A stretch of 64,000 nt of DNA from Xanthomonas hortorum pv. pelargonii (GTDB lineage Bacteria > Pseudomonadota > Gammaproteobacteria > Xanthomonadales > Xanthomonadaceae): positions 992,001 through 1,056,000 of the forward strand of contig NZ_CP098604.1 in NCBI RefSeq assembly GCF_024499015.1. Reading direction: 5' to 3'. Both the position numbers and the translations under genes were made by a program. The notes beneath the pieces are model-generated. The model saw nothing but the letters and a program-made list of their open reading frames with translations, was not told where the DNA came from and did no database searches. How positions within the stretch are numbered: the first letter of the stretch is position 1; each line of letters starts with the position of its first letter. Positions 33,601-55,095 of this stretch are shown here, in pieces.

Positions 33601-34416
33601 ATGAAAAAATTATGCTCGATTTCCACTTGCCTCGTTGTATTGATGGGGTGCTCCACCATGTCCCTTGCACAGGCTGCAACCCATGGCAAAGGCCTCAAGC
33701 AGTCTTTGATGGTCCAGCCAGTCACCCCCATCTTTGGCACCATGAGCACCGGTGCCGGCGACCTACCCGCCAGTGTTGATCTGCGCGGCTTTGCCATTGA
33801 GCCCGGTGACCAGGGGCAAGTCAATTCCTGCGGATCCTGGGCCACGGCTCACACATTGGGCGGCTGGTACGCCAACGCAGGGAAGCAGGCAGTTAAACGA
33901 TTTGCCCCCATGTATCTTTATAGCCAAGTAAATAATGGTGTCGATGAAGGTAGCACCATTGAAGCGAACCTGGATACAGCGCTTTCACAAGGAATCGACA
34001 CGGAGCAGCATTATTCCTGGGGCAACTACGACTGGAAGCACAAACCAACCGCAGCCGACCGTGCCAGTGCGGCAAACCATCGAACGCCGTACAAGAAATA
34101 CACTGTGATTTATTCGGGTAGCGGGAACGGAAATGCCCCGCTGATCGAACAGATAAAACGAGCGCTAGCTGCATCAACACCGGTGGTGATCGGCTTCAAC
34201 ACCAGACAAGGCTTTAACGACCTAGGCGCCAACGAAGTGGACAACGACACTACCAGTCCGGTCGATGGTGGGCACGGCGTCGTAGCACTTGGCTATAATC
34301 AAAGCGGGCTGATTATCGAGAACAGTTGGGGCGAGAACTGGGGCTCTCGAGGCTTTGGCACGCTGTCTTGGGAAGTAGTTGGCAAGGATGTCTTCATAGC
34401 GGTAGTAGCTCATTAG
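33601..34416 (+). CDS. Small secreted papain-like (C1A) cysteine peptidase without propeptide
   Basis: A 271-residue protein with a Sec signal (LCSISTCLVVLMGCSTMSLAQA). The C1A catalytic elements are the oxyanion Gln and nucleophile Cys in DQGQVNSCGSWATAHTLGG, the His in DGGHGVVALGYN, and the Asn in IENSWGENWGSRGFG. The usual SCWAF is SCGSWA. The usual inhibitory prodomain (ERFNIN) is absent; only about 40 residues precede the mature start (LPASVDLRG). A lipoprotein-like Cys (LMGC) is possible, but the signal peptidase I site AQA fits better. Base composition is lower in GC than the neighbourhood, suggesting transfer. It is probably an extracellular or periplasmic virulence-associated protease; that role is inference. 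Confidence 0.87.
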   Translation: MKKLCSISTCLVVLMGCSTMSLAQAATHGKGLKQSLMVQPVTPIFGTMSTGAGDLPASVDLRGFAIEPGDQGQVNSCGSWATAHTLGGWYANAGKQAVKRFAPMYLYSQVNNGVDEGSTIEANLDTALSQGIDTEQHYSWGNYDWKHKPTAADRASAANHRTPYKKYTVIYSGSGNGNAPLIEQIKRALAASTPVVIGFNTRQGFNDLGANEVDNDTTSPVDGGHGVVALGYNQSGLIIENSWGENWGSRGFGTLSWEVVGKDVFIAVVAH

Positions 34417-34986
34417 AAGCCGCTAAAGGAAACATGATGAGGGCCGCGTCCGCCGCAAGTGCGGGCGCGGCCAACTTCCGGACGAAGGGTACCGCCTCAG
34501 TGCATCTGACTCCACTGCCAGCGTCAAACACTTGGAAATTCAATGCTCAGCGCTACAAACCAAGAACCGTTAACAACCCCCTGAATATTGTTTCGCCAGC
34601 GGCAAAATTGCGACCACTCACCTACGGCAGCTGCATTCGGCACGATTGATGGCCCTAGACTATCTTTAGGGAACCTCTGAACAATGCGCGGCGTTGCGGG
34701 CGAACTTGGGATTTCGCTTTCTCGCAACGGTCGCCCATGCTAAAAATCAATCACTGGCACCTGATGAAGATTGCCTCAGGTGTCGAGGCTGTGGCGAGGT
34801 CGCCAAGCGCGACTTGTGAGAGGCCTGCATTGTCAATGCTGAGTATATTTTATAGAAACTTCACTAAATCAGGGGTTATTGGCCTGCTTCGCATCAGCTT
34901 GTAGATTTGCGCACTTGGATAGCAACAACGTATAGGCGAAGGTATAGTGCGCGCCACATCCACTTGACATAATAACTATATACATT
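34417..34986. other. Gene-free low-GC stretch
   Basis: About 570 bp between the papain-like gene and xopG. A GC-rich hairpin, GGCCGCG / CGCGGCC (34442-34472), follows the protease gene and may terminate it. Around 34673, GGGAACCTCTGAACAATG resembles the terminal inverted repeats of Xanthomonas insertion sequences, but no transposase remains. The xopG promoter occupies the end. Confidence 0.55.
34888..34948 (+). promoter_or_regulatory. Imperfect PIP box with consensus -10 box, xopG promoter
   Basis: TTCGC-N15-TGCGC (34888-34912; one mismatch in the second half-site) is followed after exactly 30 nt by TATAGT (34943-34948), matching YANNNT. The spacing to the xopG ATG (38 nt) equals that of xopQ. 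Confidence 0.7.
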
Positions 34987-35667
34987 ATGCCAATCCAAAC
35001 CAATTATAGCGGGATCTACTCACAAAGCATGCCCAATACGCCCCGCGACCAAGATCGGTTTAATGCGGAAGTGAATGTGCATCTCGATCATCTCAACTCT
35101 CGACCAACTGGCAACCAGTTACTGGACAAGCTACAGCAGCTTAGTGGAAAAAGAAGACACAAGGTCACTATTCATGAGATCGCTCCCCCCGAAAATCCAG
35201 GTGCAGAGCCCGTTCTCTCACGGCACCAATTAGACGCTCATCCTGAGCTAAGCAGATTCAAAGATATTCGCGAGAAAGCCGGCCGTTCATATGCTCTGAA
35301 GAAGCCGGGAGGCGAAAAAAACCAGGGATCAAGTGTTGTTGTGTCATGGAGTGCCCGTCAGACGAGCATTGAGCTGGACGACGATGGGGACCCAACCACT
35401 AAGGTGACCTCCAGTCCCATCGACAAAGTTTCAGTGTTGGGGCACGAATTGGTGCATGCAAAGCATATGATGGCTGGAACGTGGAAAGGCTCATATGAAG
35501 ATGATCGTGGCCCAGACACTCCCACCGGGAAGGAAGAGTTGCGTGCCGTCGGCTTAGGAAAATACAAATATTCTCAGTCAGGCGAACCATCGGAAAATTC
35601 TATTCGAGCCGAGCACGGTTTACCAAAACGGGTTAGCTACCATCACATTGGCTATAGAAGCGAGTGA
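34987..35667 (+). CDS. xopG: Type III effector XopG (HopH1-like zinc metalloprotease)
   Basis: A 226-residue protein of the HopH1/XopG family, related to clostridial-toxin (M27) zinc proteases. The zinc site is LGHELVHAKHMMAG with HELVH at residues 153-157, and a downstream acidic segment (KEELRAVGLG, about 182-191) supplies the third ligand. The N-terminus (MPIQTNYSGIYSQS) and the C-terminal block SENSIRAEHGLPKR are typical of the family. Length matches HopH1 (about 218). An imperfect PIP box with consensus -10 precedes it. GC content is clearly lower than the chromosome average, consistent with horizontal acquisition together with the neighbouring IS remnants. Confidence 0.92.
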   Translation: MPIQTNYSGIYSQSMPNTPRDQDRFNAEVNVHLDHLNSRPTGNQLLDKLQQLSGKRRHKVTIHEIAPPENPGAEPVLSRHQLDAHPELSRFKDIREKAGRSYALKKPGGEKNQGSSVVVSWSARQTSIELDDDGDPTTKVTSSPIDKVSVLGHELVHAKHMMAGTWKGSYEDDRGPDTPTGKEELRAVGLGKYKYSQSGEPSENSIRAEHGLPKRVSYHHIGYRSE

Positions 35668-36131: not shown

Positions 36132-36424
36132 GCGGCCTCCCCGGCGTCAGCACGCGCGCTGTCAGAGGCGTCGGGCTCCAGGCGCGCGGGCCACTGCACC
36201 TGCGCCAGTGCCTGCGTCACCTGCTCGGCCAGCAGCTCCAGGCAGCACGCCAACTCCTCCATGCAGATGCCTGGCTGCCGCAACTGCTCTTCGGCCTGCG
36301 TGCGCGGCTGCGCCAGGCGCGCTAGAAACCGCATGTGGTCGCGCAGTTGCTGCAAACGGTATTGCGCGCCTTCTGGCAGGTAGTAGCCCGGGTGTGACTG
36401 CGCATCTCGTACAACGTCCGACAT
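36128..36424 (-). CDS. Small hypothetical protein (first of a coupled pair)
   Basis: A 98-residue, mostly helical protein with no recognised family (SHPGYYLPEGAQYRLQQLRD, then EELACCLELLAEQVTQALAQ). It is followed with a four-base overlap by the 89-residue gene and preceded by a structured leader containing an 84-codon frame. Confidence 0.65.
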   Translation of the reverse strand: MSDVVRDAQSHPGYYLPEGAQYRLQQLRDHMRFLARLAQPRTQAEEQLRQPGICMEELACCLELLAEQVTQALAQVQWPARLEPDASDSARADAGEAA

Positions 36425-36434
36425 GGCCTGCTCC

Positions 36435-36689
36435 TCATTCCATGGAATCAGCCCGCCCGCCGCAAGGCGGCGGACGGGAAGTCGGGAGGCTCGAAACCGC
36501 GTGTAGCCGGCGGGCGTATTCCCCTTGCGGGTGTTGTATTAGCCGCCCTCCCGACGCAGGCATCACGTCGGTTGCACCCCTAAACAAGCAGGCACAAAAA
36601 CCCACCGGTTTGTCGGAGGTGGGTACCGCTACACGTGGAGTTTCGAGGCTCCGTGCAGCAAGACTGCTACTGAAATTCGGATGAGTCAA
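36435..36689 (-). CDS. Possible 84-residue leader protein / structured 5' region
   Basis: The frame ends 10 nt before the small gene pair. Its product (GFCACLFRGATDVMPASGGR, then SLPTSRPPPCGGRADSME) is Cys/Pro/Arg-rich and looks like the translated leaders found upstream of small gene cassettes in prophage-like regions, but I cannot name a family. The DNA contains a hairpin CCCACC / GGTGGG followed by TTTTTGTG (minus strand, about 36585-36625), which may instead act as an RNA regulatory element or attenuator. Confidence 0.35.
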   Translation of the reverse strand: MTHPNFSSSLAARSLETPRVAVPTSDKPVGFCACLFRGATDVMPASGGRLIQHPQGEYARRLHAVSSLPTSRPPPCGGRADSME

Positions 36690-36839: not shown

Positions 36840-38917
36840 TCACTTTTGCAGCAAGTCCTGAAGGAATTCTGATTCAGGCTTCACCGCTGAGACATGCAAT
36901 TGATCGCGGGCACGGGTGCAAGCTACGTACAACAACTGGCGCTCGGTGTTGTAAATTTCGGTCAGCTCGGCCTCGTCGGCGGCAGTGTCGATGCGCGCCT
37001 GTGAAGGAATGATTGCATCATCGCAGGCCATCACTGCGACCACGCGGAATTCCATGCCCTTAGCCAAATGCTTGGTGGTGATGCTGACGAAGCCCTCTTC
37101 CGTCGCCATATCCTTGCCAAGCACGCGCCCCTGTAGGCCAGCGGCCTTTACTGCCGCCTGTGCGCGAGACAGTTCGCTTTCGGATCGGACGAAGACACCG
37201 ATTTCCTGCGGCTGCACGCCACTGCTGCTGCACTGCTTCAACCATACGCCAACGGCTTCGCTTTCCGTCTGGGCATCGGCATAGCCGCAGATGGTCGGCT
37301 CCGGCCCATTGAACACGGAAACCGTGCCCTTGCGGCTTTCGACGTTTCCGTCCACATCGGATACCTCGGGGCCGAGCAGACGATCGGCCTGCGAGCGAAT
37401 CTGGTGCGATGTGCGGTAATTGATATTGAGCGTGCGCGATCGACCACGCACATCAACACCCAAATGTTTCCACGAGAAAGGCGTCTGGAAGATGCGTTGA
37501 CCGAGGTCGCCGGCGAAGAAGAGCGCATTGGCGCGGTTGCCGCCAATCGCTGCAAGGAAGCGCAATTGTTGCACGCTGATATCCTGCGCTTCATCCACCA
37601 CGATGTAATCGAATACCGGATGTTTGCGATTGGGCATGACTTCGGCCAGCTTGGCGAACATTTCGGCAGTAGTGATCTTGCCGGCCTGTTTCAATTGCGC
37701 TTGCACCTGGGTGAAAACCTGCCAATACAACGCTCGCTGCGCCTCCGGCAAACGTGTCTTGCGCCCTAACCGCTTGGCATCGCGGTAAGCCTCCCAGCTT
37801 TCCACTTGCCATGTATCCACCACGTCGTCCCATTCGGACAGCAAAAACGCAGCGTTGGCCTTCAGGCCATCGACCTGCGTAGCAGCTGACTTCAGCATAG
37901 AGAAAGTTTCATCACGACTGGCAAATACCGGCTTGCCGAATTCCGCCGCATACAAGCGGATACCAAGAGCATCCATGGCGAATACGTCGATACGTTCACC
38001 TAGCTTCGGCGTGTTCCAGATCAGCCGATACAGATTGCCGCGCAAGGCGTTGGCCAACGTGTCCGAAAACGTGGAAAGAAGGACGCGTGCGTCTTCGTCC
38101 TTTGCACCAAATGCACAGCCCGGTGCAAGGCAACCACTGTCTTGCCCGTGCCCGCCGAGCCAGACACACGCGCCGCACCGTTGTAATGACGTTCGACAAG
38201 TTGCCGTTGTGCCGGATGCAGGAAAACTGTCCACTTGTCCCACGGGTATTCCAAGGCGCGAGCCAGCTCGTCCATATCGGACATGACGCGGAAGCGACGC
38301 TGCGCGTCCGGGTGCTGGAACGGATCCGCGCCCCTACCCGCCACCTCCGGCAACGCCGGCGTGCCGCCGGTCGCCAGTTCAAGCAGGGCTTCTGCCGCCT
38401 CACCGGGAAGATGATGGGCCAGCTCAAGCAGCGAATCCTCGTCGACAGCTTTCACGTCGGCAAGCCATTCCTGCGGCACCCCATAGGCCAGCAGTTGGTC
38501 GTCACCATGTTTCGCGAACAGTTTCGGCTTCCGCCACGTGGCAGGCCTGCTGTCCTCGACGTACTTCGGAACGAGGATCTCCTCGACACGCTCGCGGACT
38601 TCGACAAGCTGCGCTGCGCCGGTGGTCGGGTGCACTTCCAGCTTGCGCCGCTCGGCCCATTGATAGGCCTTATCGTGATGATCGACATAGCAGAGCAGCA
38701 GACTGCCAGCGGTCTTGTGGACGATCAGGCGAATATCGCGGCTGACACGCACCGACCAGAAGTTCGGATCTTTGGCTCTGTCGAGCTTATGGAAGCTCAT
38801 GCCGTTACCAACAGGATCCACCTGCAAATCGAAGGCGGTGGTCTTGGCTGCCTTTTGCTCATCGCCGGTCAAGCGCGCAAGACTAGTGGTAAAGGTGTCG
38901 GCGATGCGGAATTCCAT
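36840..38917 (-). pseudogene. RelE-like domain fused to UvrD/Rep-type helicase, frameshifted
   Basis: The N-terminal 95 residues from ATG 38917 resemble a RelE/ParE toxin fold (FTTSLARLTGDEQKAAKTTA, FWSVRVSRDIRLIVHKTAG, CYVDHHDKAYQWA). The rest is a superfamily 1 helicase: Walker A GSAGTGKTVVALHRA, motif II YIVVDEAQDIS, ALFFAGDLGQRIFQTPFSW, INYRTSHQIR, TTKHLAKGMEFR and YVACTRARDQLHV. The frame breaks at 38101-38103, where three A residues (minus strand) occur; four would give a continuous HLVQKDEDARVLL and an intact protein of about 692 residues. It is the last gene of the res-mod operon and probably a nucleic-acid-processing partner of that system. Confidence 0.82.
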
Positions 38918-38939
38918 CAGTTCCTCTCAATTCTGGCAA

Positions 38940-39312
38940 CTACGCCGCGCGGTACTGGCTACCGCGATCCACCGCAAATTTTTTCAGCTTCTTCGCCAGC
39001 TTCCGACACTCTTTTTCGGTGACCGCGTTGAAATTAATAATCGCGTGCGCTGGGTTCCCGACGACGGGATCGGGCTGATGTATCAGCCCAACCGATGCGG
39101 CCTCTGCGCCACTGACAGCCCACACACCAACGGACTCCAAACCGAGATCCAGTGTGTAGTGATGATGCGATGCCTCCGCGGTAGTCTGATCGCCATCGTA
39201 AACGGACAGCTTTCCGTCATCCTTTGGGAAAGGGAAAAAGCCTGGCTGGAGACTTCACCATCGGGGAAAAATTCGGATGCACCTGGCGCAGCAATAAGGT
39301 CTGATCGTTCAT
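38940..39312 (-). pseudogene. Unknown operon protein Z, two frameshifts
   Basis: The ATG at 39312 overlaps the stop of the upstream gene (ATGA). Reading MNDQTLLLRQVHPNF, then FFPDGEVSSQAF, then FPKDDGKLSVYDGDQ requires one extra base in each of two A5 runs (39267-39271 and 39235-39239, plus strand). The corrected product is about 123 residues ending in a basic ECRKLAKKLKKFAVDRGSQY. No family is recognised. The position between protein Y and the helicase suggests a component of the same system. Confidence 0.65.
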
Positions 39313-39746
39313 GCCTGCTGCACCTTGATGGTGTCATTCAAGAACGCGAACAGGGATTGCCAGCCGACAGGATCGAGATTGAAGTCTCTCTCCACGTCCT
39401 CCTCATCGGCCCCGAACGCATGGTAACTGGCCTGCAAGTTCGTCAAGTCGATGTCCAGCGACGGATCACCTTCGACTTTCCATTCGAGCAAAATATTGCC
39501 ATCCTGCTTTGAAACAATTATGGGTGACGGTAATTTATCCGGGTAATCAGCGATTATTTTTTCAGAGACACTAGACAGCCTGTCGGCATCGGGCGCCAGA
39601 CCACTACCCGCGAACCAGCCATTTTTAAGCTGGGAGATCTCGTCGAAGCGCGCCGAGATGGCATAGTTCTTGGTGACTTCCAGTGACTCGATGGAAATTA
39701 TTTTTTGCAGGCGTTCGTAAGAATCGTACGCACCTACGCCTATCAC
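39309..39746 (-). CDS. Unknown operon protein Y
   Basis: A 145-residue protein with IISIESLEVTKNYAISARFD, the segment LKNGWFAGSGLAPDADRLSS, and LPSPIIVSKQDGNILLEWKV. It is acidic and probably soluble. I do not recognise a domain. It is intact and overlaps both neighbours by four bases (39743-39746 and 39309-39312), a sign of translational coupling in the res-mod operon. Confidence 0.75.
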   Translation of the reverse strand: MIGVGAYDSYERLQKIISIESLEVTKNYAISARFDEISQLKNGWFAGSGLAPDADRLSSVSEKIIADYPDKLPSPIIVSKQDGNILLEWKVEGDPSLDIDLTNLQASYHAFGADEEDVERDFNLDPVGWQSLFAFLNDTIKVQQA

Positions 39747-40408
39747 GCTAATCTGATGACGCTCGCGCCCCCATAGATGCGAGCCGTGTTATGAAACGAG
39801 TCCACCATGGGAATAACAACGGCCGGGCTATTGTCTGCCGGCTTCAGGCGAAATGAGGATTTGGCGAAATCAACCTCTTCAATGTAGCCATTGAGCGAAA
39901 TTTCTCGCTCATATACCTGGTCCGCAGCCAGCACCAGTTGCTTGCGTTTTTCCTGCGTTAGGCGGGCCGGATTTCCGATCTGAAGTGGCAACTCTAAAGC
40001 TTCATCGGCACGCAAAGAACGTCCGAACTGATTGAAGTGCCCTAACAATTCTTTCGGAAATGCATCTGGCAATGCAGTAACCGGTGCTGCGATACACTCA
40101 GCCACCAAATCACGGGCACGCTCGAAATAATCTCTCTCACCGCCTTGTAGGGCAAGCGCGCCAGCCATGACCAACGCCAGCATCGGCTTGGTGCTACCTT
40201 CGTCGATGCGCTCAATATCCAAGCGGAAACCCGCTTCAAAGCCCTTGGGCACACGCTGCCGTCCTGGGTGCTCCTGCAAATACAGATGCTTGGCCAGTTC
40301 GACAATCAGACGTTCATAAGCCGCAAGATCACGAGCCACATCGACGGGCAATGTATGCTCGTCAAAGCGTGCGCCAGTGAACTTGGGCTGGGAGAAGTCG
40401 ATCTTCAT
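39743..40408 (-). CDS. Unknown operon protein X
   Basis: A 221-residue intact protein starting MKIDFSQPKFTGARFDEHTL, with AYERLIVELAKHLYLQEHPG and a C-terminal LNGYIEEVDFAKSSFRLKPA followed by VVIPMVDSFHNTARIYGG. No family is recognised; the C-terminal part looks beta-rich. It starts 4 nt after the methyltransferase gene and overlaps protein Y, so it is part of the same operon. Confidence 0.75.
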   Translation of the reverse strand: MKIDFSQPKFTGARFDEHTLPVDVARDLAAYERLIVELAKHLYLQEHPGRQRVPKGFEAGFRLDIERIDEGSTKPMLALVMAGALALQGGERDYFERARDLVAECIAAPVTALPDAFPKELLGHFNQFGRSLRADEALELPLQIGNPARLTQEKRKQLVLAADQVYEREISLNGYIEEVDFAKSSFRLKPADNSPAVVIPMVDSFHNTARIYGGASVIRLA

Positions 40409-40412
40409 ATAT

Positions 40413-43347
40413 CTAGCTTACCTTGAAAACCTTCATCACCTCATCACCGAGGTGATTGATGACCTTCACCGCAAACCGACCGTTACTCGGTTTCGGGAAA
40501 GGGCGCGAGGTGTCGCAGTTGAGCGTTGCCCAAGCGTCGGGGTCGATTTCAGCTTTGAGGGTAGTCTTCAGAGCCTTGTACGGGTCATTCGCGCCGAGGA
40601 AGTAGGCATGGCGGACGAAGAAGGATTCCTCGTTGTAGTCGGTATCCAAAACCAGCAAGCGATGCCGTCTGCACCGTCGCTACGCACTTCACCGGTGCTG
40701 GGGTGGAACACATCCACGCCGTTGATGCGCACCACCAGTTGCCCGTCGGCAGGTACCTCGATAACGTCACGCTTGCCATCGTATCGGCGGATGCTGTGGC
40801 CCTGTGTGTCCAGCACGTCCACATCCGGCTCGCCGAAGATCACGAACAGATTGCCCTTGCCGGTGTTCTTCAGGTCTTCGGCCATGTGTAGGTCGGCGTT
40901 CATACGCGCCTTTAGTACATTGATACGGCCCAACTTGCTGAATTCGGTGGCCGGTGCGTCGTAGTTGAAGGCGCAGGCGATGAGCACGTCGAAATTGGCA
41001 TCGCCAGCCTCGCGGGCAGCATCGACCAAATCTGCACGGGTGACTGTGCCGAACTCTGGGCCGACCAGGATGCCGGCACGCTTTACCTGTCCGTTTTCCA
41101 GATAGCGGCCTTCGGCGCAGATCAAATCGCCCGGCCACGGCTCCAGTGAGGTGAACTCTATCTTGTCGGCCTTGTGCGCCTGCTGCACGCCAGCGGTGCG
41201 CAGATTGGCCAGGATCAGGCTGGCAAAGTCCTGTCCGTACTCCGCTTGAGTCTCGGCCACGTGGTCGATCAGGTTGTCTTCCTCGTCCACGCCCAGCACG
41301 CGATGCGGCGACAGGGATTCCACAGTGAAGGGGCCGGCCACACGTACCATCTTCCTGTCCTCATATGGTTTGTCGTGGAGGTACTCAAACTCAGCCTTAG
41401 CGGCAATAGAGGCATCGATTTCCTGTTGGCGGGCGATGCGTTGTTGCCACCAGTCGGCGTGGAGTTTCTTGGCTTCAGCAGTCCACTCGGTCTCTACCTC
41501 GCGCGGGATTTGCCATTCCTGCCACTGCTTGCCGAGTGATTTGTTCAGCGCTTCACGCAGCGATTCCAGCACGGTCTGGAATCTTTCCCAAATGACGTCG
41601 ATCTCTGCGTTGTTGGCAATCGTTTCGAGCATGATGTGCGGCACGCGCTCGCAGACAAAGCCGTGGGCAATATTGTCCCACGTGGGCTGGCTGGACGGCG
41701 CACTGCGGGTGATCTCGGCTTCCTTCAACTGCCCTTCTTTGCTGTCCGCCAGCAGATAGAACGGATAGCGGGCACCCATGATTCGAGCGCGGGCCAGCGC
41801 CAACGATACGCGCGAGGTGTCAATGGTGATCCAGCGGCGGCCCCATTGTTCGGCAACATAGGCGGTAGTGCCGGAACCGCAAGTGGGATCAAGCACCAAG
41901 TCGCCAGGGTCGGTTGCCATCTGTAGGCAGCGCTCAATCACTTTGGTGTTCGTTTGGACGACGTAGACCTTTTCTTCCGTGAAGCTGCCAGTGCTTACAT
42001 CCGTCCAAACATTCCCATGGGCCGACAGCTCAAAGTCAGTGTGATAACGGATGAATCTCAGTGAGTTTTCAGCAACATGAATGCGCCCAGCTTTTGCAAG
42101 CCTGTCCATTCCCGTTGGGAATGATGCCTTCCAATGCGAGTTCTTCTCCCAAGTATCGTAGCCTTTCCCGCGAAAAGTGAATGGCTGATGCTCCTTGGCA
42201 CGACCTTGTGAAAGAAGATTGTCTGGAGCATATGGCAATGAACCTTCTGGAACTGGAATATCGCCACGCTTTTCAGCTGCTGACACGCCACGATAGGTGA
42301 AATCAGGAAACATCAACCAGCGAGCGTTTCCTTCTCCAAGCTCAAACTTTTTGCGGAACATGGGCGAACGCGCTTTACGAGCGCCAAGTGCTTTGTCTTT
42401 GGCGTACCAAAGGATATGGTCACTCACATTGCCGACATAGTTCGTCACGAAGCCCGTCGTTGTCTGTACCGTGATCAAACTAATGAAGTTCCTGTCACCA
42501 AAAACTTCATCCATTACCGCCCGCACGCGATGCACATTCTCATCGCCGATCTGCACAAAGATCGAACCGCTGTTCGTCAACAAATCCCGCGCCACAACTA
42601 GTCGGTCGCGTAAATAAGTTAGGTACGAATGAATGCCATCGCGCCACGTATCGCGAAACGCTTTTACCTGCTCCGGCTCGCGGGTGATGTGGCCCACGTT
42701 ACCGTCCTTCACGTCGCGGCTGGTGGTGGACCACTGAAAATTACTGTTGAATTTGATGCCATAGGGCGGATCGAAATAGATGCACTGCACCTTGCCGCGA
42801 AGCCCCTCGCGCTCGGCCAGGCTAGCCATCACTTGCAAGGAGTCGCCCAGGATCATCCGGTTCTGCCAATGCCCCTCATGTTGGTAGAACTCGGTGCGAT
42901 CCGCTCCTTCGGGAAGGCCATTGAAGTCGCCGAACAAATCGAGCGAGTCCTGTTTCGGCGTGGCAGCTTCGCGTCGTTCTTCGGTCTGGCGGCGCAGATC
43001 GTCGATCAGCGCCTTGGGTTTCACCTTCTCTTGGATGTACAGCGGCGGCGCATTGACGACCAGATCTGACCAGTCTTGCTGATCCTTGCCTCGCCAAATG
43101 AGTTGTGGATCGAGGTCGCGGTTAAGCCGCTGCTGGAATTCCGGGAAACCTTTCCCCCGTCATGCAAGGCGCACAGTTCCCCTAGCCATTGCCTGTTGGC
43201 ACGCGGATAGGCCACTTGCACAGGCGCTTGCTCGTGGTGCTGCATCACGGACTGATGCTCCACCGTCGGAATGTTCTTCCGCTTGGCCTCGGTGTGGGTG
43301 ATCTGCTCGATACTCTTGCCGGGATTCTCTGTTTTCTTCGTTGCCAT
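40413..43347 (-). pseudogene. Type III R-M-like DNA methyltransferase (Mod), two frameshifts
   Basis: The corrected product of about 978 residues is a beta-class amino-methyltransferase: catalytic motif IV DPPY in VQCIYFDPPYGIKF precedes the AdoMet motif I in DLVLDPTCGSGTTAYVAEQW, with a target-recognition region between, as in Mod subunits. Two single-base losses break it. Near 43149-43150 (plus) CC should be CCC, joining the 5' piece ELCALHDGGK to GFPEFQQRLN. At 40648-40651 an A4 run should be A5, joining GIACWF to LDTDYNEESF. The large middle frame (40568-43024) still holds all catalytic motifs. It follows res by 11 nt, the reverse of the usual mod-res order. Confidence 0.85.
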
Positions 43348-43358
43348 CTTAGTACTCC

Positions 43359-46316
43359 TTATTTCCCCGGCGCGGGCACAGCCGTTTCAATCATTTGGTT
43401 GAACTTCGCCTCGACCTCTTTCGCGAAGTCATGCTGCATTTCGTACACGTCGCCAAACTCGGCGAAGGCCCAGCGGCCATGTCTGCCGAGGTGGTTCACG
43501 CCGGGAATCCAATAGGTGTCCATAGTGGACTTCTTCTCCTTCGCGTCTTCGCGCCTGTAACCCTTAATCTCAACGATCAAGTTCAGCGGATCACCCTTAC
43601 CGCGTCCATCGTCCACTTGCACGATAAAATCCGGGATGTAGATGCGGTTGGCCGAGCCAAAGCGGTAAGGTACTTCCAGGCCGAGATTGTGGTTTTTAGT
43701 GTAGGCCAGCACCTTGGGATGCGATTCGGCGATGCGGCAGAATTCGCCTTCCCAGCCGCTGTCCAGAATCACCCAGTTGACCTGATTTTTCGGCTGGTTC
43801 TCCACGCCGAGGGTTTCCCAGCGTTCAATGCACGGACGAGAAGTGTTGAAACGCACGTGCGCGGTGCTGCCGGTCGGGTTGAATGGGTCGAGGATGGCCT
43901 TAACCTGCCGACCCTTCTCCAGTTCCTTCGCGGTGATGCCCTTGGTGATGCGCTGGCAGGCCATATCTGCCAGTTCGCGGTACATCAACTGCGCCGGGTA
44001 GGTGCCACCCTTACATTCCAGGCACTGGTCCAGCCACTGGCGCACGATACGCTTGAGCTGCCCGAACAAGGCAATCGGTGCATCCTGGCCTAGATCACGC
44101 CAATGCTGGAACAGCAGATGCTTGGTCAACTCCATCAGTAGGGTGGACTGGCGCACGTCTCCCAGATGCTTGATATCCAGCTCTACCGCTTCGCCAATGA
44201 TGCCGGCGTTGTGGGTCCTGGTCGCGCCGACCATGTCAGGCGTCAGGCTGAGGTGGTGATCGTCGTTGAATTCTGCTTCGAGTTGTTCTTCTGGCAGTTC
44301 AACGCGATAGCCCTGTACGCGCGGGAACCAGATTTCCAGATGATCGCGTTCCGGACGCAGTGCCTTGACTGTAATGGTTTCGCGGGGCTTGGGCGGCGTG
44401 ATGATGACAGGCTCGGCTGTGAAGTCGAAGGGGATGCCGAATATGTCGGCGTACTCCACGTCGAAGAGACCTTGCTCGTTCAGCTCATAGGACTGGCGAC
44501 GCAGGGCACGGCCAATCACCTGCTCGCACAGCAGCTGAGTACCAAAGGCACGCACGCCGAGGATGTGGGTAACTGTATTGGCATCCCAGCCTTCCGTGAG
44601 CATCGACACCGACACCACACAGCGGATTTGTTCACCCAAGCGACCCTGCTTGCCAACGGTGTTCATCACCTCGCGCAGCAATTCGCTGTCACTCAGGTTC
44701 TCAGCCTGACGACGATCGCCGGTGCGCTCGATGATTTCGCGCTTGAAGCGTTCTATCTCGTCGGCCGCCATCCCCCGGAAGTTATCATCCAGCGCCTCGC
44801 CTGATTCGAGTTGCTCGCTGTCTATCAGCAGGGTGTTCGGACGTGCTAACGGACCGTGTTCATCATGGTTTCGGAACAATTCAAGCCTGCCGGGTACAGG
44901 CTTGATGAAGCCATTCTCATCCGTGCGCTCAAAACCGGAGATGTAATCAAACACCAATTTTGAAGTCGCGGTGTTATTGCACACCACGATAAAGCACGGT
45001 GGCGCTTGAATGCCTGCCTGCTTCCACGCTTCGTAGGTTTTGAGGTAGTGGCCGTACAGGGCTTCCAGTGCGGTCTGCAATTCCACCGGAATGGCCAATG
45101 GATCGAGCTGGGCGTTTTTGCCGCGCCCCTTCTTCGGCATCTTCTTGCCGATGTGCTTCCAAAGCTCACGATAGATGGGCATTTCCGCGCCGGGAATGTT
45201 GTCGGCGACCGGCACGCGCGGCAACTTGACGATGCCGCACTCGATAGCGTCCATCAGCGAAAAATCGCTCATCGTCCACGGAAAGAGCGTGCCCTCCACA
45301 TAGCCAGAGCCGGCGAGGAAGAAAGGCGTCGCTGACAGGTCCATCACCTGCTGCAGCCCCAGCTTGCGGTTGACCGCTTCTAGGCCAGAAATCCAAAGCC
45401 GGGCGGCTTCATTGTTGTCCTCGGCTTCCGCTTTCTGATCTTTATCAGGATCTTCGTCGTCCACGGCAGCGTGCGGCTTCTCCCGATAGCAATGGTGTGC
45501 CTCGTCGTTGATGGCAAGAATATTCTTCAGCCCCATCAATTCCGGCATGACTCGCTGGAGCATCTGTCCCTCGGTTTCCAGCGTTTCCAGCTCGCTGCCG
45601 GTACGGCCTTGCAACAGGCGGCGGCCGCCCTTGGACAGCTCCATGCGTTCGCGCCGCTTGAAAGCGTGGTAATTAGTGATAACGATTTTGGCCTTGTCCA
45701 AATCGGACAGCATGTCGCGCGGCACGATTTCGCGGTTGACGTAGTAGCTGTCTGCATCATTGGGCAATAGCACACGCAAACGATCCTTGATGGTCAGGCC
45801 AGGGGCAACCAGCAAGAAACCACGGGTGAATTTCTTGCTCTGCGGATGCCGTACAGCATTGACCGTCTGCCATGCAATGAGCATGGCCATGACTGTGGTC
45901 TTGCCAGCACCAGTCGCCAGCTTCAGCGCCAAACGCATCAAGCCGGGATTGGCATCAGTGCTGGCCTTTTTCAGGTGATCGAGGAAGCGCTCGCCGCTCT
46001 TTCCAAGCTGTGGAGCGACCTCGGTCAACCAGATGGCGGTCTCGGCCGCTTCTATTTGGCAAAAGAATGGGCGCACACCGGCGAACTTGTGGTTGCGCCA
46101 ATGTTCCAGTAAGCGGGCTGTTTCAGGGGTGACGCGCCACTGCGCAGGTGGCAAGAGACGCCAAGCATCGACCTCGCGCCGCACCGAATTGATCAGCTCA
46201 GAGTGTCGGTAGCGCTGCCCGTCGTCAGCCAGGCTCTCAACTTCATCCAGCGCCAGGGTAGCCTGCTCGCCCTGGTGCCGACGTGGCTTTGGAATCGGAC
46301 TAGGGCCTGTTAACAC
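43359..46316 (-). CDS. Type III restriction-type helicase-nuclease (BPTD_3080-like Res), 5'-truncated by IS
   Basis: A DEAD/DEAH helicase of about 985 residues with LALKLATGAGKTTVMAMLIA (Walker A), NILAINDEAHHCYREK (DEAH), VMDLSATPFFLAGS, SMLTEGWDANTVTHILGVRA and QVIGRALRR. A C-terminal PD-(D/E)XK nuclease follows: RIYIPDFIVQVDDG and LNLIVEIKGYRRED. The native start is at 47248; an IS inserted after codon 39 or so separates it, and the current ATG (46316, MLTGPSP) is supplied by the IS terminal repeat. Loss of the short N-terminus may or may not kill activity, because helicase and nuclease motifs are complete. Confidence 0.87.
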   Translation of the reverse strand: MLTGPSPIPKPRRHQGEQATLALDEVESLADDGQRYRHSELINSVRREVDAWRLLPPAQWRVTPETARLLEHWRNHKFAGVRPFFCQIEAAETAIWLTEVAPQLGKSGERFLDHLKKASTDANPGLMRLALKLATGAGKTTVMAMLIAWQTVNAVRHPQSKKFTRGFLLVAPGLTIKDRLRVLLPNDADSYYVNREIVPRDMLSDLDKAKIVITNYHAFKRRERMELSKGGRRLLQGRTGSELETLETEGQMLQRVMPELMGLKNILAINDEAHHCYREKPHAAVDDEDPDKDQKAEAEDNNEAARLWISGLEAVNRKLGLQQVMDLSATPFFLAGSGYVEGTLFPWTMSDFSLMDAIECGIVKLPRVPVADNIPGAEMPIYRELWKHIGKKMPKKGRGKNAQLDPLAIPVELQTALEALYGHYLKTYEAWKQAGIQAPPCFIVVCNNTATSKLVFDYISGFERTDENGFIKPVPGRLELFRNHDEHGPLARPNTLLIDSEQLESGEALDDNFRGMAADEIERFKREIIERTGDRRQAENLSDSELLREVMNTVGKQGRLGEQIRCVVSVSMLTEGWDANTVTHILGVRAFGTQLLCEQVIGRALRRQSYELNEQGLFDVEYADIFGIPFDFTAEPVIITPPKPRETITVKALRPERDHLEIWFPRVQGYRVELPEEQLEAEFNDDHHLSLTPDMVGATRTHNAGIIGEAVELDIKHLGDVRQSTLLMELTKHLLFQHWRDLGQDAPIALFGQLKRIVRQWLDQCLECKGGTYPAQLMYRELADMACQRITKGITAKELEKGRQVKAILDPFNPTGSTAHVRFNTSRPCIERWETLGVENQPKNQVNWVILDSGWEGEFCRIAESHPKVLAYTKNHNLGLEVPYRFGSANRIYIPDFIVQVDDGRGKGDPLNLIVEIKGYRREDAKEKKSTMDTYWIPGVNHLGRHGRWAFAEFGDVYEMQHDFAKEVEAKFNQMIETAVPAPGK

Positions 46317-47115
46317 ATCCGAAGCCCATCAACGACTAGGACGAAGCTGAGGAATCCAAGGAACATGACATCCAGCTTCTCGAAGCGCGAGAAAATCCGG
46401 CGGTAGCCTTTCAAGCGACGGAACAGTCTCTCCACTTCGTTACGCCGCTTGTACATCTCCCGGTTGTATTCCCAAGGCTCGACCCGATTGGATTTCGGCG
46501 GGACCACCGGCACGAAGCCAAGATCGAGCGCCAACTGGCGTGTTTCGTTGCCTTCGTAAGCACGGTCCATCAACAAATGAATCGGCCGCTCCACTGGCCC
46601 CAGGTGTTCAAGCAACGCGCGGCCTGCAGGTGCGTCATGCACGTTGCCAGGCGTCAATCCAAAGGTGATGGCTGTTCGAGCATCTGCGGCAACCATATGA
46701 ATCTTGGTGTTCCATCCACCGCGAGACTTGCCGACGGCCTGCGGGCCGTTTTTTTAATGCACCCGTGCCATCGGGATGGACCTTGACGCTGGTGGAGTCC
46801 AGCGAGACTGCTTCGATCTTGATGCGCACGATCTGGGACTTCTGCAATTGGGCGAACATCCGGTCCAGCACACCCGCCTTGGCCCAACGGTTCATGCGTG
46901 TGTAGACCGTATGCCAGTTGCCAAAGCGCTTGGGTAGGCCGCGCCATTTGCAGCCATGCTCGGCAACGTAAAGGATGGCGTTGACCACTTGCAGGTTGGT
47001 CATGCTGACATTGCTGCGCTGCGCCGGCAGGCAGTGTTCGATCAGAGAAAATTGTGCTGGCGTGATCTCCATACCCAATAGTTTAATCGCTCGGGCCATT
47101 AGTGTTAACAGGCCC
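46303..47115 (-). mobile_element. IS5-family (IS427-like) insertion sequence, 813 bp, inserted in res
   Basis: Perfect 14-bp terminal repeats GGGCCTGTTAACAC (46303-46316) and its complement (47102-47115) are flanked by TA target duplications (46301-46302, 47116-47117). Excising the element plus one TA fuses ASSFI to SPIPKPRRHQ in frame in res. Confidence 0.95.
46310..47099 (-). CDS. IS5-family transposase in two overlapping frames
   Basis: The first frame (46635-47099) carries the N-terminal domain (MEITPAQFSLIEHCLP, CKWRGLPKRFGNWHTVYTRM) and the first catalytic Asp in VSLDSTSVKVH. The second (46310-46696) carries IHLLMDRAYEGNETR with the second Asp and RNEVERLFRRLKGYRRIFSR with the Glu. An A7 run on the minus strand (GCATTAAAAAAACGG, near 46750) is a standard -1 slippage site that joins the two frames into one DDE protein of about 260 residues. 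Confidence 0.88.
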
Positions 47116-47248
47116 TAATGAAGCTGGATGCTCGGCGAGATTCGACTACTTGCTGTGTAGGTTGACCCTTTTCGTCGAGCTCCCAGTGCAAAGACGGGTA
47201 ACCGTATGGAGAATTGAGAATAGGCTGATTGAAAAACTGGTCACTCAT
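47116..47248 (-). pseudogene. Separated 5' end of res
   Basis: From ATG 47248 the minus strand encodes MSDQFFNQPILNSPYGYPSL and continues HWELDEKGQPTQQVVESRRA then SSFI, where the IS begins. This is the N-terminus missing from the helicase-nuclease frame. The promoter of the whole six-gene operon should lie upstream of it. Confidence 0.88.
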
Positions 47249-47321: not shown

Positions 47322-47630
47322 TCAATGATAGTCGTCTTCACGCTGATGCCTGACTGCCAAAACGGTGACGACCTGATTGCTTTCAACCTCAAACAGCAGG
47401 ACGTAGCCGCTGACACCGAAGCCGATCACCAACTCCCGCAAGAACGGGTCTGCCACCCCCGCCTTGCGGCAGCTCAAAGGAGCCAGTTCAAGCACGGTGA
47501 CGCCATCGCCGATGGCCTGCAGCGCACGTTCGGCAACGGTGAAGTCGCCTTCGGCACGCTGTAGCAGCCAGTCGTAAAGCCGCGCGAGATCGTCGCGCGC
47601 TTCCTGAGTGAAGCGGACAGAAAATCCCAC
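47322..47630 (-). CDS. RelE/ParE-family toxin
   Basis: A 102-residue protein with the ParE/RelE pattern: VRFTQEARDDLARLYDWLLQ, then LRELVIGFGVSGYVLLFEVE and VVTVLAVRHQREDDYH, the usual strand-rich end. The gene lies 6 nt after its antitoxin. ParE toxins inhibit gyrase and RelE toxins cleave mRNA; the sequence is closer to ParE. Confidence 0.87.
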   Translation of the reverse strand: MGFSVRFTQEARDDLARLYDWLLQRAEGDFTVAERALQAIGDGVTVLELAPLSCRKAGVADPFLRELVIGFGVSGYVLLFEVESNQVVTVLAVRHQREDDYH

Positions 47631-47636
47631 GTTGGC

Positions 47637-47900
47637 TTAGCCCTTGCGCGCCTTGTCCAGTTTGGATTGCAGCCCGGCCAGCACATCCTTTGCGTCGATG
47701 TACCGCCCCGACGCCTTGGCGCTGTCACGCGAGGCCAGCCCGCGTGCAATGAAGGCTTCCTGCTGCTGACGCTGCTGCACCTGGGCACGCACGGAGTGCT
47801 CGACGAAGCTGGAAAGCGTCTCACCCTTCTGCAACACAGCTTCGGCCGCTTCGCGCAGCGCCGGGTCTACCCGGAGCGATGGAAGAGATGCGGATTTCAT
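47637..47900 (-). CDS. Antitoxin (ribbon-helix-helix type) of ParE-like toxin
   Basis: An 87-residue protein starting MKSASLPSLRVDPALREAAE with ETLSSFVEHSVRAQV, a ribbon-helix-helix-like N-terminus, and a charged C-terminal tail (DVLAGLQSKLDKARKG) expected to wrap the toxin. ATG 47900 is preferred to TTG 47921. Its upstream end nearly touches the truncated hsdR on the opposite strand. Confidence 0.82.
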   Translation of the reverse strand: MKSASLPSLRVDPALREAAEAVLQKGETLSSFVEHSVRAQVQQRQQQEAFIARGLASRDSAKASGRYIDAKDVLAGLQSKLDKARKG

Positions 47901-47996
47901 GGCTGGTCCAGTGCGTTGCAATTGCGATGCATCATCGCAAGCGAGCGGCGGTGCTTCAAGGTTTTCTTTGCAGACCTAAGCCGACGATGTCGCAGC

Positions 47997-49661
47997 TACG
48001 CTGATGCCTGCCGTATCGGCCTGACCGCCACGCCGGCCAAGCACACCACCGAGATCTTCGGCAAGCCGATCTACACCTACAGCTACCGCGAAGCAGTGGC
48101 AGATGACTGGCTGATCGACCACGAGCCGCCCATCCGCTACACCACCGCGCTCGGCAAGAACGGCATCCACTTCGATCGCGGCGAGCGCGTCAGCGTTATC
48201 AACACGCAGACCGGCGAAGTCGATACCGCTGACCTGGAAGACGAGCTCGACTTCAATATCGAGTCGTTCAACCGGCGTGTGATCACCGCGGACTTCGACC
48301 GGGTCGTCTGCGAGCAGCTCGCCATCGAACTGGACCCGGACGGCGAGGAAAAGTCCCTGATCTTCTGCGTCAGCCAGCCCCACGCCGAACGCGTCAAGAA
48401 CCAGCTGGACGAGGCCTTCAAACAGGTCCATGGCAATTACTACAACCAGGCCAGCGTCGCGGTGATCACCGGCAAAAGCGACAAGGTCGACCAGTTGATC
48501 CGCAACTACAAGAACGAGCGCTACCCCAATATCGCCATCACCGTCGACCTGCTGACCACCGGAATCGATGTGCCGCGTATCGCCAACCTGGTGTTCATGC
48601 GCCGGGTCCGCTCGCGCATCCTCTACGAACAGATGAAGGGCCGCGCCACCCGCCGCTGCGACGACATCGGCAAGACCGTGTTCCGCATCTTCGATCCGGT
48701 CGATCTGTACACCGCGCTCGAACACGTCGACACCATGCGCCCGCTGGTCAAGGACCCCAACATCAGCATCGAGCAGCTGGTCCACGAGCTCGGCCAGCAG
48801 CGCAGCTTCGATGCCCCCGGCAGCAACGGCGGCAGCCATGCCGACGACGCGCTCGACCAATTGAGCCAGCGCATCATGCGCGTGCTGCGCAAGGCCCAGC
48901 ATCGCGCCGAGCAGCGCCCGGATCTGCGCGACAAGCTCAGCGAGCTGGAAACCTCCTGGGGCGTGGTGCCCGCCGTGCTGCACACCCACCTGCACAAGCT
49001 CGGCGCGCGCAATGCCGCCAGCTTCCTCCGCGAGCACTCGCGTCTGGTGGAGCAACTGGCCGAAGTGGGCGTGCTGCTGGGCACGGACCGCTATCCGGTC
49101 ATTTCCGAACACCTCGACACCTTGCTCGAACGCGCACAGAACTACGGTGTCAACGAAGCCCCAGCCGATTACCTGGACAGCTTCAACGCCTTCATCCGCG
49201 AGCAGATCAACCAGTCCGCCGCGCTCAGCGTCATCGTCAACCGCCCCCGCGACCTCACCCGCGCCCAGTTGCGCGAGGTACGCCTGCTGCTCGACCAGCA
49301 CGGCTACAGCGAGGCCCACCTGCGCGGCGCGTGGCGCGACAGCACCCAGCAGGAGGTCGCCGCCAGCATCATCGGCTACATCCGCCGTGCCGCGCTGGGC
49401 GAGGCATTGGTGCCGTTCGAGCAGCGCGTCGACAAGGCGATGCAGGGCATCTATGCCCAGCGCAGCTGGACGCCGGTGCAGCGGCGCTGGCTCAAGCGGC
49501 TGGCCCAGCAGCTGATACACGAGGTGGTGATGGACCGCGACACCGTGCAACGCAACTTCAGCGGCGACGGCGGCGCCCTGCAGTTGGACCGCCTGCTCGA
49601 TGGCCGGCTGGACCAAATCTTGGGCGATCTGGGCGAGCAACTGTGGGATCAGACTGGCTGA
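47997..49661 (+). pseudogene. hsdR: HsdR, C-terminal half of a type I restriction enzyme
   Basis: About 554 residues remain, starting at YADACRIGLTATPAKHT (helicase motif III) and continuing through SLIFCVSQPHAERVKNQL, TVDLLTTGIDVPRIANLVFM and MKGRATRRC (motifs V-VI) to the helical C-terminal domain that binds HsdM/S. The N-terminal PD-(D/E)XK nuclease, Walker A and DEAH motifs are missing; a normal HsdR has about 1000 residues. The break is next to the toxin-antitoxin pair. The enzyme cannot restrict DNA. Confidence 0.88.
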
Positions 49662-49747: not shown

Positions 49748-50950
49748 ATGCCCAATCGAATAACCGATCCCCGCCCCCGCTGGATCTGGCAGCAGCCCGA
49801 CTGGCCTCGCTTCCACTGGCAGGCCGATGCCCTGGCGGCTCTGCTGCGCGACTGCCAGCACGCGCACGGCCAGCTGCTCGGCATGGCTGGCGCGGTCGCC
49901 GGCGACCAGCAGGCCGCCGAAGCGCTGGACACCCTGCTCTCCAACATCGTCACCTCCTCGGCCATCGAGGGCGAGCGGCTGGATGTCGGCTCGGTACGCT
50001 CCTCGCTGGCCCGCCATCTGGGCCTGGCCGAAGACAGTCCTCGCCGCACCACTGGCCGCAGCGAGGGGCTGGCCGAGCTGATGCTAGACGCCACCGGCCA
50101 CGCCGACGCCCCGCTGGACCTGCCCCGCCTGCTGCAATGGCACCACTGGCTGTTTGCCGAACAGGACAGCCTGCTGCCCACGCGCATCCGCATCGGCGCG
50201 CTACGTGGCGATGAGCCGATGCAGGTCATCTCCGGCCGCCTTGACCGCCCTACCGTCCACTTCGAAGCCCCGCCGCGCGACGGGCTCGACGCCCAGCTCG
50301 CCGCCTTCCTCGACTGGTTCGCCAGCTCGCGCACCGACGCCACGCTGGACCCGCTGCTGCGCGCCGGCATCGCCCACCTGTGGTTCGTCACTCTGCACCC
50401 GTTCGACGACGGCAATGGCCGCCTCACCCGCGCACTCACCGATCTCGCCCTGGCCCAGGCGCAACCGCAGGCGATCCGTCTCCATGCACTGTCGGCCAGC
50501 ATCCTTGCCGACCGCAGCGGCTATTACCGCAGCCTGGAAACTACCCAGAAAGGCCTGCTCGACATCACCCACTGGCTGCACTGGTTCCTGACCACCTTGC
50601 ATGACAGCCTCGTGCAGGCCCTGCACCGCATCGACCGCGTGCTGGCCAAGGCGCGCTTCTGGCAGCTACACCACGCACAGCCGCTGTCGGCCGAACAGGT
50701 CAAGGTGCTCAACCGCCTGCTCGATGGCGGCGAGCGCGGCTTCGAACACGGCATCAGCGCCTCGCAATACCAGGCCGTGGCCAAGGTCTCCAAGGCCACC
50801 GCCACCCGCCATCTGGCCGACCTGCTGGAAAAAGGCTGCCTGCGCCGCCTGCCCGGCAGTGGCCGCAGCACCCGTTACGCCATCAACACGCCGGCCTCCA
50901 GCATCGCGCTGCCGGCCCGCACCACTTCAGAACAAGGCAGCACCCCATGA
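49748..50950 (+). CDS. Fic-family AMP-transferase with C-terminal winged helix
   Basis: The 400-residue protein has an N-terminal inhibitory motif SSAIEGE (S-x3-E-G, class II Fic) at about residue 75. The catalytic loop is HPFDDGNGRLTRAL at about residue 217, with all key residues (His, Asp, Asn, Arg). A winged-helix/HTH-like C-terminus (VAKVSKATATRHLADLLEKG) follows. Fic proteins transfer AMP to target Ser, Thr or Tyr hydroxyls. The gene overlaps hsdM by ATGA (50947-50950), embedding it in the type I R-M operon, and palindromic operators precede it. It appears intact although its neighbours are broken. Confidence 0.92.
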   Translation: MPNRITDPRPRWIWQQPDWPRFHWQADALAALLRDCQHAHGQLLGMAGAVAGDQQAAEALDTLLSNIVTSSAIEGERLDVGSVRSSLARHLGLAEDSPRRTTGRSEGLAELMLDATGHADAPLDLPRLLQWHHWLFAEQDSLLPTRIRIGALRGDEPMQVISGRLDRPTVHFEAPPRDGLDAQLAAFLDWFASSRTDATLDPLLRAGIAHLWFVTLHPFDDGNGRLTRALTDLALAQAQPQAIRLHALSASILADRSGYYRSLETTQKGLLDITHWLHWFLTTLHDSLVQALHRIDRVLAKARFWQLHHAQPLSAEQVKVLNRLLDGGERGFEHGISASQYQAVAKVSKATATRHLADLLEKGCLRRLPGSGRSTRYAINTPASSIALPARTTSEQGSTP

Positions 50951-51045
50951 CCCATAACGACATCGTCCAGAAACTCTGGAACTGATACGCCCAGGGTTTC
51001 CTAGACATCTCAAGGCCATGGAAAATGGTCGATTCGGAGGTGTCT

Positions 51046-51318
51046 ATGAGCAGCAAGCGGTATACGGATGAGTTCAAGATCGAGGCGGTCCGGCAAGTGA
51101 CTGATCGTGGGTTCAAGGTGGCAGAAGTCGCCGAGCGGCTGGGTGTCACGACGCACAGCCTGTACGCCTGGCTGCGCACGTTCGGCAAGTCTGGCGTGGT
51201 GCATCGCGCCGAGGTGGACCAGAGCGCCGAGGTTCGGCGGCTGAAGGCAGAGTTGCGTCGAGTGACCGAGGAGCGCGACATCCTAAAAAAGGCCGCCGCG
51301 TACTTTGCCAAGGGGTAA
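51046..51318 (+). CDS. IS3-family transposase OrfA
   Basis: About 90 residues from MSSKRYTDEFKIEAVRQVTD, an HTH (VAEVAERLGVTTHSLYAWLR) and a leucine-zipper-like end (EVRRLKAELRRVTEERDIL) typical of IS3 OrfA. The slippery AAAAAAG at 51285-51291 allows -1 frameshifting into OrfB. An earlier in-frame start at 51025 exists. Confidence 0.9.
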   Translation: MSSKRYTDEFKIEAVRQVTDRGFKVAEVAERLGVTTHSLYAWLRTFGKSGVVHRAEVDQSAEVRRLKAELRRVTEERDILKKAAAYFAKG

Positions 51319-51335
51319 AGGCAAAGTACGCCTTC

Positions 51336-55054: not shown

Positions 55055-55095
55055 CTTTCTTTATTCATCACATCCATCACAAGGAAGCGAAGCAC

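Follow-up and report, generated by a model that had tools for sequence, protein, structure and literature searches.

The window analysed here is a stretch of 64 000 nucleotides from Xanthomonas hortorum pv. pelargonii (NZ_CP098604.1, positions 992 001–1 056 000, forward strand). It contains an operon on the minus strand, running from 47248 down to 36840, that encodes in order Res and Mod proteins of a restriction–modification (R-M) system, three reading frames termed X, Y and Z, and a UvrD-type helicase. A preliminary description made from the sequence alone had taken these as six genes of a possible undescribed defence system; its spacings and the tight packing on the minus strand were confirmed over 36840–47248. 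Overall, its observations held in part and its interpretation was partly supported. The features are as follows (ORF, open reading frame; SF2, superfamily 2).

47117–47248, minus strand: N-terminal piece of Res (BPTD_3080 family), residues 1–44; tblastn with intact relatives, NF046055 positions 1–40.
46303–47115, minus strand: IS5-family insertion sequence (IS) interrupting res; 14 bp inverted ends, NF033580 at 104 bits for one ORF, under the cut-off of 110.
43359–46301, minus strand: remainder of Res, with SF2 helicase and C-terminal nuclease-like region; NF046055 1288 bits (cut-off 800), ResIII E = 8.8e-10.
43021–43347, minus strand: first frame piece of Mod, an ORF of which the Mod alignment covers only the first part; ORF and tblastn.
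40568–43024, minus strand: middle frame piece of Mod with the N6/N4 methylase domain; PF01555 E = 7.7e-32, PADLOC MTase_III PDLC03632 1433 bits.
40413–40658, minus strand: last frame piece of Mod; ORF, locus profiles and tblastn.
39743–40408, minus strand: first half of M32A (X); PDC-M32A positions 1–214, E = 2.6e-85.
39309–39746, minus strand: second half of M32A (Y); PDC-M32A positions 231–374, E = 2.2e-46.
38940–39312, minus strand: M32B (Z) in two frames; PDC-M32B E = 9.6e-12 for the C-terminal piece, two tblastn pieces.
38021–38917, minus strand: first frame piece of the helicase, with RelE/HigB-like N-terminus and start of the UvrD domain; PF00580 E = 4.5e-5, PF05015 E = 0.046.
36840–38243, minus strand: second frame piece of the helicase (UvrD); PF13361 E = 2.6e-15, PF00580 E = 7e-8.
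47322–47630, minus strand: ParE-like toxin gene bordering the island, outside the system; PF05016 E = 1.7e-14.

The likeness of Res to BPTD_3080 proteins, suggested earlier from the letters, was verified: the large piece matched NF046055 over nearly the full model at 1288.3 bits. Scores against type III Res models stayed below threshold (PRK15483, 17.6 bits for a cut-off of 564; PADLOC REase_III, at most 17.7 bits), as did those of a search for a C-terminal nuclease (RE_endonuc, 17.2 bits; TnsA-like, 18.8 bits). Residues P938, D939, E959 and K961 of Res are invariant across the nine rows of alignment A1. Mod was assigned as an N6/N4 methylase from its PF01555 match and a DPPY motif in the translation, and the helicase gave several moderate matches to GajB models, at best 88.8 bits for the first member.

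X and Y cover complementary parts of the 375-position PADLOC profile PDC-M32A, and 116 of the best 120 relatives (of 355) of the intact M32A of locus L090 are 362–372 residues long, which rules out X and Y as two genes. Since both tile one profile and one length, their 4-nt overlap is a frame break and not a gene junction. The three unknown proteins of the preliminary description are thus two genes, M32A (X plus Y) and M32B (Z), of the PADLOC phage defence candidate PDC-M32; the two are adjacent here and both are frame-split. A single gene can in this way pass for two new ones when its frame is broken. M32A carries an OB fold, and its C-terminal domain was taken as residues 250–366. For M32B an ADP-ribosyltransferase-like fold is predicted; Arg9, Ser37, Tyr39 and Glu71 are highly conserved and were not placed on any template. 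M32B had no sequence match in Pfam or the PDB, and a profile search of the PDB gave nothing under E = 1. Kinship by sequence to RES-domain proteins or DarT found no support, as hhalign runs against one sequence of each gave no match. One M32B relative belongs to Xanthomonas sp. NCPPB 1068.

The res gene is disrupted after residue 44 by the 813 bp IS5-family element, which is present in 14 copies of 99–100% identity in this genome, so that the insertion appears to be recent. Intact relatives aligned only piecewise in tblastn, Mod in three frames and M32A, M32B and the helicase in two each; with Res cut by the IS, all five genes are therefore broken here. The assembly consists of two contigs at 100% completeness, and 13 same-genus control genes each gave one aligned piece on the remaining window, several of them partial and three with an internal stop. 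Some frame breaks in the operon could be sequence errors; the IS insertion could not, and this copy of the Res–Mod–helicase operon is most likely dead.

Relatives were sought with Res alignment A1 in a collection of 84 980 species. At least 575 were found, and the best 80 (71–79% identical to the query) were kept. Their loci were annotated with profiles from intact loci, matches under 150 bits (Res) or 60 bits (Mod, helicase) being ignored, and genes were called by a longest-ORF rule without a gene finder. All 65 loci in which at least 1.5 kb follows Res have Mod as the next gene, so the res-before-mod order, described earlier as the opposite of classical type III, was upheld. The helicase was found in 39 of the 48 loci that had a Mod of at least 850 residues and at least 4 kb beyond it, always as Res–Mod–helicase on one strand. 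Among the nine without a match, the sequence ends early in L089, L154 and L159, and L086, L091, L093, L102, L124 and L138 have none within the stretch; L116 holds only a helicase fragment. Further loci also carry it (L063, L066, L067, L069, L071, L072, L073 and, frame-split, L070), with L065 lacking it. L042, L074 and L079 show no Mod within the available stretch, and the distant loci L075 and L077, in which Mod precedes Res, were left outside the core counts. A UvrD-type helicase gene, recognised by eye, adjoins the reversed pair in L077 (9422–18157).

Res exceeds the NF046055 cut-off in two of 35 genomes of the genus, that of the window and G562. The latter locus (L170) has an intact Res (1034 residues), Mod (992) and helicase (692); the end of Mod meets the start of the helicase at base 12532, so nothing lies between them. 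Res relatives turned up in 55 plasmid records by protein search, and ten of these were examined with the same profiles. Res, Mod and helicase were present in five (L171, L172, L173, L175 and L176, the last with Mod in two pieces); of the three genes L174 has Res alone, a Tn3 transposase coming next. On p1NCPPB4222, a conjugative plasmid of Pseudomonas avellanae, the core is bare, with a 1-nt gap between Res and Mod and a 1-nt overlap of Mod and helicase. The copy of Xenophilus sp. (L139) is likewise intact and has nothing in either interval. Plasmid annotations place the BPTD_3080 name beside 'site-specific DNA-methyltransferase' and '3'-5' exonuclease' or 'UvrD-helicase domain-containing protein'. 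What counts against a three-gene core throughout the family is that the four most distant plasmid copies (L177–L180, Res at most ∼45% identical to that of L090) have Res and Mod and no helicase by profile. The helicase is therefore regarded as a feature of the near clade and not of every BPTD_3080 system. A distant helicase-less plasmid copy has a CBASS phospholipase and cyclase behind Mod.

Additional genes lie in two intervals of the core: pocket 1 separates Res from Mod, and pocket 2 separates Mod from the helicase. Many of these genes could be named from family representatives by Pfam and PADLOC. Pocket 1 holds SoFic (Fic), Schlafen AlbA_2, NYN, Bro-N (PDC-S13), PIN with DUF2281 (VapC-like) and GmrSD_N genes. 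Pocket 2 holds DarT with Macro/DarG (L140), SIR2 with HerA, IetA with IetS, XRE-Peptidase_M78 with DUF4411, AAA15/21 with DUF4276, ThsB-like TIR, RlaP, RhuM, and M32A with M32B. Exceptions were a Schlafen-like gene in pocket 2 (L095) and an XRE-M78/DUF4411 pair in pocket 1 (L147). Several tenants had no Pfam or PADLOC match; if cargo is triggered through the core, they would be candidates for new immune modules. Placement was assessed on single-linkage clusters (phmmer, E = 1e-5), omitting pocket ORFs shorter than 70 residues and the low-complexity cluster 15; cluster 5 merges full M32A (L090, L128) with proteins of the C-terminal domain only (L104, L119, L152). For families in at least two loci, 85 of 88 members lay in their family's majority pocket, whereas 10 000 shuffles reached 73 at most and 61.4 on average. 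Across the 50 helicase-bearing loci, cargo families had 71 members in 137 kb of pockets and three in 487 kb outside the core, a control that is partly circular because the families were defined from the pockets.

Common ancestry of the loci would raise this fidelity, but a quick LG+G4 phylogeny of 79 Res rows (change counts are raw, without a shuffled-label baseline) shows most cargo carriers in scattered positions. Fic has eight carriers and eight changes, AAA15/21 seven and seven, and Schlafen eight and seven; less scattered are NYN (six carriers, four changes), Bro-N (six, five), PIN (four, three) and M32A or its C-terminal domain (five, four). For the 50 helicase-bearing loci, the nearest Res neighbour shares a pocket-2 cluster in six and a pocket-1 cluster in one, pocket 1 being empty in both for eight more. 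L097 and L104 share 90% of Res, yet one has Fic and an unnamed gene where the other has Schlafen and a three-gene set. That set recurs in pocket 2 of L104, L119 and L152 and consists of a protein of ∼260 residues, which we take to resemble the TIGR04255 family, an M32A C-domain protein of 181–204 residues and a protein of ∼140 residues. The M32A C-domain therefore does not seem to be tied to M32B as its sole type of partner.

It might be supposed that the locus is an ordinary type III-like R-M pair within a generic defence island, the helicase and cargo being chance neighbours and the pockets without function. The window is indeed rich in defence-type genes (half of an hsdR, hsdM-, Fic- and DUF262-like genes, ParE), another genome of the genus has an unrelated SNF2–Mod cassette at this site, and distant copies are without the helicase. 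Chance neighbourhood would hardly produce a helicase of constant order and strand in most near loci, bare cores with touching or overlapping genes, cargo far commoner in the pockets than in the flanks and cargo families faithful to one pocket, and we consider it improbable.

M32A and M32B are rare in this setting. The full pair stands in pocket 2 of Burkholderia stagnalis (L090) and a Comamonadaceae bacterium (L128), where all five genes are single open frames; 48 of the 50 core loci with a helicase lack it, as does L170 of the same genus, which rules it out as a fixed part of the system. Linkage to Res and Mod across genomes, which the preliminary description proposed to check for X, Y, Z and the helicase alike, is thus common in the near clade for the helicase and rare for the others. 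The pair also lies directly behind hsdM in L021, L022 and L023 (Pfam for all three), with hsdS and hsdR downstream (by Pfam in L021 and L022, by eye in L023), and precedes hsdS in L025, the upstream side of which ends at a contig edge. Found both in BPTD_3080 cores and behind hsdM in type I operons, the pair is lodged in R-M loci of more than one kind. In L026, L027 and L029 (the last at a contig edge) the C-terminal domain and M32B occur without the N-terminal half, and a nearby R-M gene was not recognised by eye; in L028 the C-terminal domain is within a longer reading frame. Of 299 genomes of the phylum, 19 encode a Res that scores above the NF046055 cut-off and 13 match PDC-M32A, six of the 13 with the N-terminal part included; only in the genome of the window do the two stand at one place, and the three others that have both (G069, G133 and G185) carry them on separate contigs. 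Within the family (247 genomes) the N-terminal part was matched in the window's genome only, with one weak C-terminal match elsewhere. M32A had no match in a phage collection (protein search), nor had the window stretch in a plasmid collection (DNA search for M32A carriage).

These distributions refute the earlier proposal of a single functional complex as a fixed set. One co-evolved system of Res, Mod, X, Y, Z and helicase would suit the tight spacing and overlaps, the intact five-gene sets of L090 and L128, and the conservation of the M32A halves between the window and L090 (81% and 69%), which is about that of the core (Mod 72%, Res 84%). It is nevertheless very improbable, as X and Y are one gene, the pair is missing from nearly all helicase-bearing loci and from L170, and it lies elsewhere in type I operons.

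Our best explanation, to which we give a probability of about 75%, is that the window holds a decayed BPTD_3080-family Res–Mod–UvrD helicase R-M system with PDC-M32 as cargo between Mod and helicase. Its observed side comprises the gene content and order, the decay, the presence of the core in most near relatives, and two pockets that differ in their cargo and exchange it among loci. In such a system Mod would N-methylate adenine or cytosine, N6 of adenine being the likeliest target, and so mark self DNA, Res would translocate on and cut unmarked DNA in a type III-like manner, and the helicase may unwind or process the cut DNA. The cargo could form a second line of abortive-infection or toxin–antitoxin (TA) type that fires once the core is blocked or bypassed, comparable to PrrC in EcoprrI. 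M32B would then be an ADP-ribosyltransferase-like effector restrained by the C-terminal domain of M32A, the N-terminal and OB-fold parts of which may link it to the R-M complex or to DNA.

Because M32A and M32B stand just behind the methylase gene in both host types (Mod in the window, L090 and L128; HsdM in L021, L022 and L023), they might instead be a methylase accessory for specificity, regulation or the sensing of anti-inhibitors, and not a toxin pair. The OB fold and the extra N-terminal ∼220 residues of R-M-linked M32A, absent from the pairs of L026 and L027, agree with this. The predicted ADP-ribosyltransferase-type fold of M32B, the C-domain pairs with no R-M gene recognised by eye nearby and the many other tenants that are effector modules speak against it, and the accessory role seems rather unlikely.

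More tentatively, and still on the doubtful side, the core may act as an immune chassis for general use, with two docking positions that differ in function, all tenants being triggered by the state of one R-M sensor. The Res/Mod pocket would then take mostly single-gene effectors or regulators, along with simple TA pairs (Fic, Schlafen-like, NYN, Bro-N, VapC-like) and the Mod/helicase pocket mostly two- or three-gene modules (DarTG, SIR2-HerA, IetAS, XRE-protease/DUF4411, AAA/DUF4276-type, M32A/B), and position in the operon could set stoichiometry or physical contact with the core. The supposed six-gene oddity becomes a testable rule: in the near clade, the operon of a Res family of at least 575 relatives holds many immune modules, known and unknown, at two set positions. 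If the cargo is triggered through the core, these operons would offer one experimental frame for the coupling of restriction to suicide modules.

The flanks of the operon (window 36177–36669 and 47324–48007) match those of the same-genus genome G359, where an unrelated cassette of ∼12.4 kb lies between them (L196:13714–20000, L197:1–6115) with an SNF2-type helicase, a 1032-residue protein, an N6/N4 Mod and a Res-like gene. This one comparison genome suggests a hotspot of swapped defence cassettes. The ParE-like toxin gene and a small upstream ORF, apparently its antitoxin (47322–47921), are at the same place in G359 and 92.8% identical. At 47990–49661 an HsdR is represented by its C-terminal half alone (model positions 577–1122), with no other match to the model genome-wide; Fic-type, hsdM-like, hsdS-like and DUF262-like genes follow at 49748–56898, with an IS3-type transposase among them (by eye). 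On the other side, 33601–35667 encodes a papain-like protein and a 226-residue protein with a zinc-protease-like motif. The latter presumably resembles a secreted effector of plant pathogens.

The earlier view that no named system matches holds for the whole set and not for its parts, as the Res family (BPTD_3080) and the candidate PDC-M32 are already known. No paper was found by the BPTD_3080 family name, and none on the Res–Mod–helicase core or its pockets in a search that left out bioRxiv, the founding PDC preprint (Payne et al., 2024) included. The name BPTD_3080 (NF046055) covers Res alone; here the helicase is a third core gene and there are pockets in addition. Both proteins of PDC-M32 are present, but the host is a BPTD_3080 core and the copy is broken. 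Type III R-M systems of the EcoP15I type share an N6/N4 Mod and an SF2 Res, and PADLOC files the window's Mod as MTase_III; unlike them, the window's Res is far from type III Res models, res precedes mod and the near clade has a UvrD helicase in addition. Hma (helicase, methylase, ATPase) is described as a defence core of three genes in which other systems are embedded (PMC8565338, PMC10855318), but its methylase, HmaB, is of the m5C type and HmaC is an ATPase, whereas here Mod is of the N6/N4 type (PF01555) and a UvrD helicase comes third. In Gabija GajA is the partner beside GajB, whereas the recurrent partners of the helicase here are Res and Mod. The type of Mod, the partners and the Res scores rule out Hma, Gabija and classical type III as the identity of the core, and MORC-type R-M operons, so far as the available part of their source describes them, consist of different genes (PMC2292703). 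EcoprrI with PrrC and the RptR-RMS-DarTG-M48 island carry a toxin-type gene or a TA pair inside a type I R-M operon, according to the available portions of the sources (PMC12707154, PMC12255303). They resemble the present loci in having cargo within an R-M operon, and DarTG is also cargo here (L140); as far as those portions go, they differ in having type I hosts with one cargo each. What is new here, its function being an inference, is one core of three genes with two cargo slots, each with families of its own, and many different tenants.
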